DNA of 48,521 nucleotides, taken from Stutzerimonas nosocomialis. Lineage in GTDB: Bacteria > Pseudomonadota > Gammaproteobacteria > Pseudomonadales > Pseudomonadaceae. The stretch covers positions 1 through 48,521 of the forward strand of contig NZ_QLAE01000037.1 in NCBI RefSeq assembly GCF_005876855.1, given 5' to 3'. The stretch's first letter is position 1. Each line of letters opens with the position of its first letter. The translations under genes were made by a program, and so were the position numbers. Of this stretch, positions 21,124 through 22,623 are shown piece after piece. The notes under the pieces are model-generated. The model saw only the letters and a list, made by a program, of their open reading frames with translations, had not been told where the DNA came from and ran no database searches.

Positions 21124-22215
21124 CTATACCAGATGCCGCATGCGCACGGCCGCCTCCACCAGCAGGCGTTCGGTGCCTGCCCAGCCAAGGCATGCATCGG
21201 TGATCGACACGCCGTAGCGCAGCTCGCCGCCCAGGCTCTGGGCGCCGTCGAACAGGTGGCTCTCGAGCATGACCGCGCGCAGCGAGCCGTCGCCGGCCAG
21301 GCGCTGGTCGAGCACGTTGCGCAGCACCTCGGGTTGACGCTGCGGATTCTTGCCGCTGTTGGCGTGGCTGCAGTCGACCATGATCTTCGGCTCGATCCCC
21401 TGGCGTTCCAGTTCGGCGCGGGCCCGGGCGATGCTGGCCGCGTCATGGTTCGGACCGGCGTGGCCGCCGCGCAATACCAGGTGGGTGTCCGGATTGCCGC
21501 CGGTCTGGACCAGCGCCGGGCGGCCCTGGCCGTCCACGCCGAAATGCTGGTGTGCATGGGCCGCCGAGCGCATGGCGTCGCAGGCGATGCCGAGGCTGCC
21601 ATCGGTGCCGTTCTTGAACCCCACCGGCAGATCCAGCCCGCTGACCAGTTCGCGATGCACCTGCGATTCGCTGGTCCGTGCGCCGATCGCAGCCCAGCCG
21701 AGCAGGTCGTCGAAGTAGCCGGCCAGCATCGGCTGCAGCAGTTCGGTGGCCAGCGGCAGGCCCCGCTCCAGCAGCTTCAGCATCAGCTGGCGCGACAGGC
21801 GCAGCCCCTCGGCCATGTCACCGCTGCCGTCGAGCGCCGGATCGTAGACCAGGCCTTTCCAGCCCACCGTGGTGCGCGGCTTCTCCACGTAGGCACGCAT
21901 CACCAGCAGCAAGCGGTCGCCCACGCGCTGGCTCAGTGCGGCCAGGCGCTCGGCATATTCCAGCACGGCCTTTTCGTCATGCAGCGAGCAGGGCCCGACC
22001 ACCACCAGCAGGCGCGGATCGTGGCCGTCGAGGATGGCGCGGATGGCGTGACGCTGTTGCTGGACCTGGCGGGCGAGGTGCGGTGTCAGCGGGAGCTGCT
22101 CGCGCAACTGGGCGGCGCTTGGCAGGGGCTGGGTCTGGCGGCGGGTCGGCGGGACGACCAGGTGCAGATCGGTGGCGGGCTTCTGGGCGGAACGGGTGGT
22201 TGCGGCTACGGACAT
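21124..22215 (-). CDS. Class I 3-deoxy-7-phosphoheptulonate (DAHP) synthase
   Basis: The 363-residue enzyme condenses phosphoenolpyruvate with erythrose 4-phosphate, the first step of aromatic amino acid synthesis. Class I AroF/G/H motifs are clear: LLVVVGPCSLHD, MRAYVEKPRTTVGWKGL, GARTSESQVHRE, VGFKNGTDGS and DCSHANSGKN. The family has Tyr-, Phe- and Trp-inhibited isozymes; which one this is cannot be told here, although the Tyr-rich leader at 22258-22362 points to tyrosine or general aromatic control. It lies between cobN and the chelatase partner genes, an order I recall also from P. aeruginosa. Its 5' region carries a two-part attenuator-like structure. Confidence 0.92.
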   Translation of the reverse strand: MSVAATTRSAQKPATDLHLVVPPTRRQTQPLPSAAQLREQLPLTPHLARQVQQQRHAIRAILDGHDPRLLVVVGPCSLHDEKAVLEYAERLAALSQRVGDRLLLVMRAYVEKPRTTVGWKGLVYDPALDGSGDMAEGLRLSRQLMLKLLERGLPLATELLQPMLAGYFDDLLGWAAIGARTSESQVHRELVSGLDLPVGFKNGTDGSLGIACDAMRSAAHAHQHFGVDGQGRPALVQTGGNPDTHLVLRGGHAGPNHDAASIARARAELERQGIEPKIMVDCSHANSGKNPQRQPEVLRNVLDQRLAGDGSLRAVMLESHLFDGAQSLGGELRYGVSITDACLGWAGTERLLVEAAVRMRHLV

Positions 22216-22257
22216 GATGGCTTCCTTGGGCCTGCGCGGTCATCCGCGCGCGGCTCG

Positions 22258-22362
22258 CTATCTGGGGCGATGGGATGTTCGATTGAGTGCATGGGCAGGG
22301 CTGCCCTGGGTAAATCGCCAGTCGTAGCGGTAATAGGCGTAGTAGCGGTTGTAGGCGGTCAT
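22258..22362 (-). CDS. Tyrosine-rich leader ORF (second leader of the DAHP synthase)
   Basis: Thirty-four codons start at ATG 22362 with GAGGA eight bases upstream and stop with TAG at 22258. The first 17 residues are MTAYNRYYAYYRYDWRF, with six Tyr, one Trp and one Phe. It lies after the terminator at 22398-22442 and ends 42 bases before the DAHP synthase start. The codon bias for one amino acid and the good ribosome-binding site suggest that ribosome progress here senses charged tRNA-Tyr. No second terminator follows it; a GC hairpin (CCGCGCGCGG) lies just before the gene, so control could be at translation. Confidence 0.65.
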   Translation of the reverse strand: MTAYNRYYAYYRYDWRFTQGSPAHALNRTSHRPR

Positions 22363-22397
22363 GCTCGGATCCTCGGTTGCGGTGGCTTTTCAGCCGT

Positions 22398-22442
22398 AAA
22401 AAAAAAAAGAAACCCCCGGTCGGGTTGCCGACCGGGGGTTTC
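22398..22442 (-). terminator. Attenuator terminator of the DAHP synthase leader
   Basis: On the minus strand a perfect 15-bp stem (GAAACCCCCGGTCGG with its complement) closes a four-base loop and is followed by 11 consecutive T. It lies between the first leader ORF and the second. With no other gene between promoter and DAHP synthase, it must be a regulated, internal terminator. Confidence 0.92.
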
Positions 22443-22491
22443 GAGAAACTGTCTGGTGGCGACCCTGTCTTGCTAGGGCGCCTGTGGGGTA

Positions 22492-22623
22492 TCAGGCGCG
22501 CCTTTGGCTAAACCAATACCCATAAAAGCAATAACCCACGGCCGCCACGAGTGCCTGGCCACGCGCGATCGCGGTGCGAGGGGCACCGAGGCGAGGACGG
22601 GACAGGGAAGGGGACGACGACAT
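22492..22623 (-). CDS. Aromatic-residue leader peptide (first leader of the DAHP synthase)
   Basis: Forty-three codons begin at ATG 22623 with GGAG six bases upstream. Near the C-terminus lies the run GYCFYGYWFSQ, with three Tyr, two Phe and one Trp within eight codons, as expected for a transcription-attenuation leader. The stop codon is 49 bases before the terminator stem. The end of the ORF can pair with downstream sequence (GGCGC.CCT with AGGCGCC), a plausible 1:2 hairpin. Stalling at the aromatic run would favour read-through into the DAHP synthase. Confidence 0.75.
   Translation of the reverse strand: MSSSPSLSRPRLGAPRTAIARGQALVAAVGYCFYGYWFSQRRA

Follow-up and report, generated by a model that had tools for sequence, protein, structure and literature searches.

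Transcription attenuators of the trp/phe type combine a leader peptide that carries control codons with an intrinsic terminator, and in a translational attenuator a ribosome stalled in the leader frees the next Shine-Dalgarno (SD) sequence. In Pseudomonadaceae, the control of DAHP synthase (3-deoxy-7-phosphoheptulonate synthase) matters for the production of aromatic compounds.

The trp attenuator is described in PMC3641672, and single-leader attenuation ahead of DAHP synthase genes has been proposed (PMC8632094 and PMC2659441). An aroF attenuator sensing Tyr-tRNA is tabulated in PMC2659441 for Shewanella and E. coli (citing Camakaris 1980), and PMC8632094 reports uORFC-13-1, an upstream ORF (uORF) with an apparent terminator, upstream of aroF in Acholeplasma. 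Two ORFs within one leader are described for Salmonella mgtCBR, where mgtM and the Pro-rich mgtP are termed tandem attenuators (PMC3641672).

Here, we describe a leader region in the window (i.e., the whole analyzed stretch of DNA, 48,521 nt). As in trp/phe-type attenuators, a first leader ORF (leader 1) with Tyr/Phe/Trp codons overlaps an RNA whose 3' end is an intrinsic terminator; unlike in those systems, a second ORF with control codons (ORF2) lies past the terminator. The locus shares with the aroF attenuator a DAHP synthase gene and an attenuation ascribed to Tyr-tRNA, whereas the accessible part of PMC2659441 concerns other organisms and mentions no second leader ORF. With uORFC-13-1 it shares a uORF and an apparent terminator before a DAHP synthase gene, but Acholeplasma has one uORF, with a Phe codon(s), before the terminator (PMC8632094, as excerpted). 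The likeness to mgtCBR lies in two short ORFs placed in series in one leader, the second being rich in the codons of one amino acid, to which mgtP is reported to respond (PMC3641672). In contrast, the mgtC signals are ATP and proline and the mgtC leader stem-loops are said there to be unlike intrinsic terminators, whereas the control codons of both ORFs here specify products of one pathway, and an intrinsic terminator separates the two; this comparison is one of descriptions. Given the mgtM/mgtP precedent, the statement in the initial annotation that no system of this form had been described was too strong. What appears to be new is the use of two serial sensors for one pathway, with a terminator between them and the second sensor flanked by an RNA-level element. 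In the accessible portions of the open-access literature, neither ORF2 nor a role of P15 (see below) as this attenuator was found described. If the interpretation is true, charged-tRNA sensing controls a single biosynthetic gene at two points, the making and then the use of its mRNA, in a large bacterial family; the finding also suggests what Rfam P15 is likely to be and reveals a conserved RNA block of short length.

Organization of the leader region

All features lie on the minus strand. Leader 1 (22492..22623; MSSSPSLSRPRLGAPRTAIARGQALVAAVGYCFYGYWFSQRRA) has terminal Tyr/Phe/Trp codons and a TGA stop; its peptide ends in VGYCFYGYWFSQRRA, with GYCFYGYWF as the control-codon stretch. A full-length match to Rfam P15 (RF00627; 103.5 bits versus a gathering score of 70) at 22413..22534 overlaps the end of leader 1 and takes in the stem of an intrinsic terminator (22399..22442), which consists of a 15-bp stem (22442 to 22409) followed by ten T. 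Rfam files this family as an sRNA ("Pseudomonas sRNA P15"), whereas here the match precedes DAHP synthase and leaves ORF2 outside. Because the match falls on the last part of a Tyr/Phe/Trp leader and on a terminator before DAHP synthase, P15 is probably the attenuated leader transcript of this gene. A small GGC...GCC hairpin at about 22379 to 22396, between the terminator U run and the SD of ORF2, seems by eye to be recurrent (e.g., in loci L149, L155, and L160).

ORF2 (22258..22362) comprises 34 codons and a TAG stop (22258..22260) and encodes MTAYNRYYAYYRYDWRFTQGSPAHALNRTSHRPR. It is preceded by a good SD, GAGGA (22370..22374), each base of which is found in at least 95% of 79 alignment rows. 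The Tyr run (22324..22353) spans codons 4 to 13, with Tyr at codons 4, 7, 8, 10, 11, and 13. It is followed by a near-invariant block, TGG-CGA-TTT (22312..22320; Trp-Arg-Phe, or WRF), containing the rare codons CGA and TTT, and, close to the end of ORF2, by the rare codons CGA-ACA (22276..22281; Arg-Thr), which are mostly kept within Pseudomonadaceae. A GC-rich hairpin (22230..22254) fills the space between the ORF2 stop and the SD of the enzyme gene, AAGGA (22223..22227). The DAHP synthase gene (21124..22215; 363 aa; NF009395, TIGR00034, and PF00793) starts with an ATG at 22215. Coordinates and sequence thus agree with the initial annotation, which had noted a Tyr-rich ORF after the terminator with six Tyr in 13 codons, a good ribosome-binding site, and 42 nt to the enzyme; the near-invariant block, the TAG-hairpin-SD module, and P15 had gone unmentioned. 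Its attribution to Pseudomonas holds in the wide sense only, the closest named relative by enzyme being Stutzerimonas azotifigens (98% identical). The layout suggests that leader 1 and ORF2 lie on one transcript.

ORF2 was the only ATG ORF on either strand of the window with at least six Tyr in the first 13 codons, and 40 mononucleotide shuffles of the window yielded zero such ORFs. Among the 48 short ATG ORFs of the window with an SD-like site, the runner-up by this measure was leader 1, with three Tyr; the others had one or zero (top six of the sorted list). A profile of ORF2, in which the window ORF is itself a row, matched its own genome at ORF2 (E value of 1.2e-12), the next best place having an E value of 0.33. 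Pfam contained no family matching the ORF2 of the window or that of L002, and NCBIfam contained none matching four ORF2s or the 30 rows of alignment A1.

Conservation in Pseudomonadaceae and in other families

Of 157 relatives, the best 80 supplied DAHP synthase loci from public genomes. Every one of these 80 loci had, upstream of the enzyme gene and ending a short way from it, an ORF that contained Trp-Arg-Phe and closed with a TAG stop. For detailed comparison, we used 149 nonredundant Pseudomonadaceae ORF2 loci, i.e., the distinct sequences of 185 entries, with further loci added from searches with P15 and with an ORF2 profile and taken in as at most 30 loci per search plus 20 hand-chosen regions. 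L001, L112 to L115, L146, and L147 (the window's genome itself, matches due to chance, and its enzyme and paralogue) were left out before the filtering of 190 entries (189 loci and the window). The filter missed L051, L068, L127 to L129, L159, and L163; L051 and L068 were restored to the set, L159 and L127 (by inspection) and L128 and L129 (by profile match) have ORF2 and stand outside the 149, and ORF2 is absent from L163. Loci fetched later (L197 to L243) are likewise outside the 149.

Within this set, TGGCGATTT occurred in 146 loci, and GGGCGATTT, TGGCGATAC, and TGGCGCTTT took its place in one locus each. The ORF2 stop was TAG in 145 loci, TAA in 4, and TGA in 0. A leader-1 ORF with TGG-TT(T/C) near its stop was detected by script in 148 loci, and the remaining one (L178) has a leader 1 in which Tyr-Trp-Tyr replaces Tyr-Trp-Phe. 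The arrangement of two leader ORFs in series around a terminator, which the initial annotation had read from a single sequence, is conserved across the family.

P15 matches were found in 77 of 145 relatives (two of these outside the family and below the cutoff) and, within genus g15 (apparently Pseudomonas_E of GTDB), in 109 of the 119 genomes. A search with the ORF2 profile hit 245 of 398 family genomes at an E value of ≤0.1, many of the hits being weak and possibly due to chance. We also tested 19 genomes without a P15 match (all 10 of genus g15 and 9 from the survey of relatives); each had one enzyme hit at an E value of ≤1e-60, with 50 to 55% identity. Since this is the identity level of the DAHP synthase paralogue in the window's own genome (51%), the P15-linked enzyme gene seems to be missing from the 19 genomes. 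No same-strand aromatic leader ORF (ATG ORFs of <70 aa with at least 5 aromatic residues in 15) was found within 450 nt upstream of the matched stretch in these genomes or in the own paralogue. The same scan gave two hits on the opposite strand, behind the gene (L206 and L209).

Beyond Pseudomonadaceae, we inspected 13 loci from two families of the same order (f36 and f43), i.e., all those with an enzyme match at an E value of ≤1e-125 among 214 genomes. Leader 1 was present in all 13 and ORF2 in 9, with TGGCGATTT in 8 (L233 to L238 of f36; L231 and L232 of f43) and as CTGCGATTT in L230; ORF2 was not seen on inspection in L226 to L229. Because it is also present in f36 and f43, ORF2 is probably older than Pseudomonadaceae and has sometimes been lost. 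ORF2 without leader 1 was not seen in any locus examined. The ORF2 stop overlaps the enzyme ATG in L233 and lies 2, 2, 5, 17, and 17 nt ahead of it in the other f36 loci; the distance is 29 nt in L231 and L232. The ORF2 variant of L230 (f43) reads CTGCGATTTAGC (Leu-Arg-Phe-Ser) and ends in CGA-CGA-TAA. L228 (f43, without ORF2) has, by eye, a six-codon ATG ORF whose stop overlaps the enzyme start.

Coding constraint and Tyr codons of ORF2

We counted codon changes of a single base among 100 near-neighbor pairs, which share descent and are not independent. Read in the ORF2 frame, these were synonymous in 217 cases, nonsynonymous in 265, and stop involving in 0, compared with an expectation of 28.5% synonymous and 5% stop. 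The other two frames gave 133/337/17 and 122/313/21 (synonymous/nonsynonymous/stop) for the same pairs. The peptide itself is weakly kept, with a mean column identity of 49% (30 rows), a length of 29 to 51 aa, and the block at codons 12 to 18 (149 loci). We conclude that ORF2 is almost certainly a real, conserved, coding second leader ORF, and it very probably acts in cis on the DAHP synthase gene.

The number of Tyr before WRF was four in 98 loci, three in 23, five in 18, two in 8, and six in 2, so that the six Tyr of the window are at the top of the range; zero Tyr followed WRF in 148 of the 149 loci. The initial annotation had made its reading depend on the presence of the ORF and its Tyr codons in relatives, and it survives this comparison, with ORF2 in all 80 fetched loci and at least three Tyr in 141 of 149. 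Its expectation of synonymous conservation of the Tyr codons was not borne out site by site. Because Tyr-codon changes in the near pairs were synonymous in 20 cases and not in 51, the Tyr number is kept while the positions move, as expected of control codons. Tyr richness is not universal for ORF2, since L237, L238, and L230 have just one or two Tyr before the block.

A near-invariant nucleotide block beside the Tyr run

Counted over three genes of the window, 3.4% of Arg codons are CGA, 2.2% of Phe codons are TTT, and 1.6% of Thr codons are ACA. At WRF, CGA was used in 148 of the 149 loci and TTT in 148, and CGA-ACA was the commonest codon pair near the ORF2 stop. L148 has GGG in place of TGG, with the other nucleotides of the block unchanged. 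Because rare synonymous codons are kept, the constraint on the block acts on the RNA as well as on the peptide, which points to an RNA-level block beside the Tyr run that is as conserved as the Tyr. The last Tyr lies 0 to 5 codons from the block in 139 of 149 loci; given the size of the ribosome footprint, a Tyr-stalled ribosome would thus cover part or all of the block in many loci.

Among the pairings examined, we found no partner that explains the conservation of the block at the nucleotide level. TGGCGATTT can form 9 bp, including G-U pairs, with the P15 arm GGGTCGCC in most loci printed; this pairing was rejected because the block is unchanged where the arm differs (GGGCCGCC in L149 and in L164 and L165; GGGTAGCC in L150), and the same was seen by eye in f36 and f43. 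Pairing in trans was also rejected, as the 10-nt complement TAAATCGCCA has three occurrences in the own genome, one of which is simply the opposite strand of the block. Of the other two sites, one lies in an Hsp70-like frame (by eye) and the other is L242; no RNA gene or leader ORF was recognized at either by eye, the search being for the exact complement. A −1 frameshift driven by the block and a pseudoknot was discarded: a slippery heptamer is absent by eye, and the stop-to-start distance is not fixed modulo 3.

The spacer between the enzyme SD and ATG often reads CGCCAG or GCCAG and could thereby pair with the CTGGCG of the block (L014, L022, L091, and others), and the window does so weakly (22216 to 22227). 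Most spacers of the Stutzerimonas-, mendocina-, and nitroreducens-like kinds gave strong duplexes with the block, whereas those of loci with the long type of ORF2 mostly gave weak ones (exception, L168). Over 63 distinct spacers, the mean duplex energy was −7.2, versus −4.8 for shuffled ones, and 40% had a P value of ≤0.1. A conserved long-range fold was not supported: apart from the hairpin past the ORF2 stop (mean pair probability of up to 0.91), the strongest recurrent helix, that between block and spacer, reached 0.25 (79 rows). The fold of window positions 22180 to 22405 was ordinary (z score of −0.15).

Stop-hairpin-start module and ribosome position models

The distance from the ORF2 stop to the enzyme ATG is 36 to 49 nt in 148 of the 149 loci. 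A hairpin after the stop was predicted in 148, its first paired base being 0 to 3 nt from the stop in 147 of them and 8 nt away in one; the median z score of its minimum free energy (MFE) against mononucleotide shuffles was −1.86. The MAFFT alignment was too poor for column covariation, and stems were compared singly; 25 distinct stems, chosen for pairing at 9 or more of 10 ungapped positions (with bulged stems left out), vary at several positions between G-C, A-U, and swapped pairs. The hairpin is missing from L150, where stop and ATG are 15 nt apart, with the stop three bases from the SD, and L159, of the same genus, looks alike.

We modeled the enzyme start with a ribosome at various positions on ORF2. 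In the 149 loci, the mean unpaired probability of the SD was 0.465 without a ribosome, 0.445 with one near the end of the Tyr run (mean change of −0.02; 15 loci up and 25 down by >0.1), and 0.405 with one at the ORF2 stop (12 up and 46 down by >0.1). The mean energy required to open the SD-to-ATG region was 5.38 kcal/mol without a ribosome, 4.53 kcal/mol with one on the last Tyr, and 6.70 kcal/mol with one at the stop. With the ribosome on the last Tyr, opening was easier by 0.86 kcal/mol on average (by >1 in 48 loci, harder in 6; clade dependent). The idea that a ribosome at the stop frees the enzyme start was rejected, as the opposite was seen (opening harder in 77 loci, easier in 3). The stop-minus-last-Tyr difference was >1 in 103 loci and <−1 in 3, and the last Tyr position beat the start position by >1 in 40 loci and was worse in 13.

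For 46 representatives, the stop-minus-last-Tyr difference was 2.23 (>0.5 in 38, <−0.5 in 3), compared with 1.40 after shuffling of the spacer (Wilcoxon P value of 5e-4) and 1.50 after shuffling of the block; most of the modeled difference therefore persists with a shuffled spacer. The last-Tyr-minus-none difference was −0.64, versus −0.18 with the block shuffled (P = 0.037, one of several tests, uncorrected). In the window, the opening energy was 3.84 without a ribosome, 3.45 with one on the last Tyr, 5.18 at the stop, and 2.69 at the ORF2 start codon; because a ribosome at the start opens the site more than one on the last Tyr, the Tyr effect in the window is small and not specific. In the 30 loci with a long ORF2 (all of genus g15), the effect of a Tyr stall was absent or reversed (+0.22), and that of the stop persisted.

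The translational second step proposed in the initial annotation, with RNA structures hiding the enzyme start, thus receives modest in silico support from the opening energies, whereas the unpaired probability of the SD did not gain from a Tyr stall, leaving the evidence for such structures weak. Taken together, the models fit a gate that a Tyr-stalled ribosome would open further and a ribosome at the stop would partly close, which is the sign that feedback requires.

Proposed two-stage control and alternative explanations

In the first stage, leader 1 and the P15 terminator would act as a trp-type transcription attenuator: leader 1 has control codons for pathway products, and an intrinsic terminator precedes the structural gene. 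Such an attenuator would also possess a mutually exclusive antiterminator and be induced on starvation; the P15 consensus shows upstream helices. In the second stage, which would concern read-through transcripts only, ORF2 would tune translation of the enzyme. Under a shortage of Tyr (or Trp/Phe), a ribosome translating ORF2 would stall on the Tyr run and cover the adjoining block, the hairpin past the ORF2 stop would stay closed, and the enzyme start would be relatively open. When Tyr is plentiful, ribosomes would reach the TAG, melt the hairpin, and sit close to the enzyme SD; TGGCGA and the 3' arm of the hairpin would then be free to pair with the start region, and the enzyme start would be less available. 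We favor Tyr-gated translational control of this kind, to which we give roughly even chances and in which the translation of ORF2, the response to Tyr, its direction, and the translational step are predictions from sequence and models. The full reading is more tentative. It would be a deeply conserved two-stage controller of a single pathway, in which a three-aromatic terminator attenuator is followed by a translated Tyr-codon gate; the gate would hold a new cis-RNA element, UGGCGAUUUA, adjoining the Tyr run, which certain lineages would reinforce with a pseudoknot at ribosome entry distance, so that codon sensing and RNA element work together. Whether the ribosome stands on the Tyr run or at the stop close to the enzyme SD would set enzyme translation.

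The initial annotation had also named a Rho-dependent step, i.e., a second attenuator in which ribosome position on ORF2 decides Rho loading on C-rich ORF2 RNA and transcription stops before the enzyme gene. Rho has been raised as a possibility for the mgtM/mgtP leader (PMC3641672), and ORF2 RNA is C-rich and G-poor (mean C of 0.356 and G of 0.201; C/G of >1.5 in 140 of 149 loci). However, the first codons of the enzyme are equally C-rich (C of 0.438 and G of 0.221; C/G of >1.5 in 146 of 149), so the composition is not special, and a Rho signature in ORF2 was rejected on the ground that C over G is no higher there than at the enzyme's own start. A stall on the Tyr run would, moreover, expose downstream RNA and yield less enzyme on Tyr starvation unless structure intervenes, and we consider Rho-dependent control unlikely. 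Another alternative is positive translational coupling, in which ribosomes ending ORF2 would reinitiate at the enzyme start, the hairpin would join stop and SD, and the Tyr codons would set the pace. The hairpin position (0 to 3 nt past the stop in nearly all loci), the short spacing without a hairpin in L150, and the stop/start overlap or 2- to 17-nt spacing in the six f36 loci fit coupling, and for f36 the overlap is just as compatible with it, a reading whose sign would be wrong for a Tyr gate. But enzyme output would then drop when Tyr is short, which is hard to square with the keeping of Tyr codons before a Tyr synthesis gene, and the enzyme has a good SD of its own in the window; we regard coupling as rather improbable.

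Explanations that place the function in the peptide fare worse. The coding constraint in the ORF2 frame would suit a small protein or trans-acting peptide with its own function and an incidental location, and regulation of another operon reportedly requires the leader peptide peTrpL (PMC7298713). Against this explanation, which we hold to be very unlikely, stand the weak sequence conservation and variable length, the lack of a Pfam or NCBIfam family, the presence of ORF2 beside DAHP synthase in all 80 fetched loci, and the single place of ORF2 in its own genome. It is hardly likely, too, that ORF2 is a nascent-chain arrest peptide like TnaC, stalling at its own stop on free Tyr: the near-invariant WRF, the frequent Arg-Thr near the end, and the lack of TGA stops would agree with arrest, but the WRF-to-stop distance varies widely, so that key residues at a fixed distance from the stall codon, as in TnaC, were not found. 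The GGG of L148 amid an otherwise intact block and the kept rare synonymous codons, with their constraint on RNA as well as peptide, likewise speak against arrest. As for a functionless chance ORF, shortness alone would favor it, and conservation in three families (the 149 Pseudomonadaceae loci and 9 of the 13 f36/f43 loci) and, strongly, the frame-specific constraint reduce its probability to almost nothing.

A possible pseudoknot in long ORF2s

The long type of ORF2 comprises the 30 loci of genus g15, where short ones also occur, and L233 to L236. Past the block, the long ORF2s share a gap-free stretch with two crossing helices that start 8 nt after the TTT codon, suggestive of an H-type pseudoknot common to two families (L002:1722-1790, L235:1373-1441, and 27 further rows of alignment A3). 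In the 29 distinct rows, 93.8% of the cells pair, with double changes at three pairs; helix 2 is paired in all 29, and one pair of helix 1 fails in 24. The covariation score exceeded those of all 500 shuffles, but sliding by +3 gave 0.089 against 0.070, and the support for a pseudoknot in long ORF2s is therefore moderate. The short ORF2 of the window lacks the pseudoknot. The MFE just downstream of the block was no better than that of shuffles (mean z score of +0.35 for the long type and +0.89 for the short type), a plain MFE being blind to pseudoknots. In L231, L232, L237, and L238, whose ORF2s are without the pseudoknot, other strong-looking hairpins were seen by eye shortly past the block.
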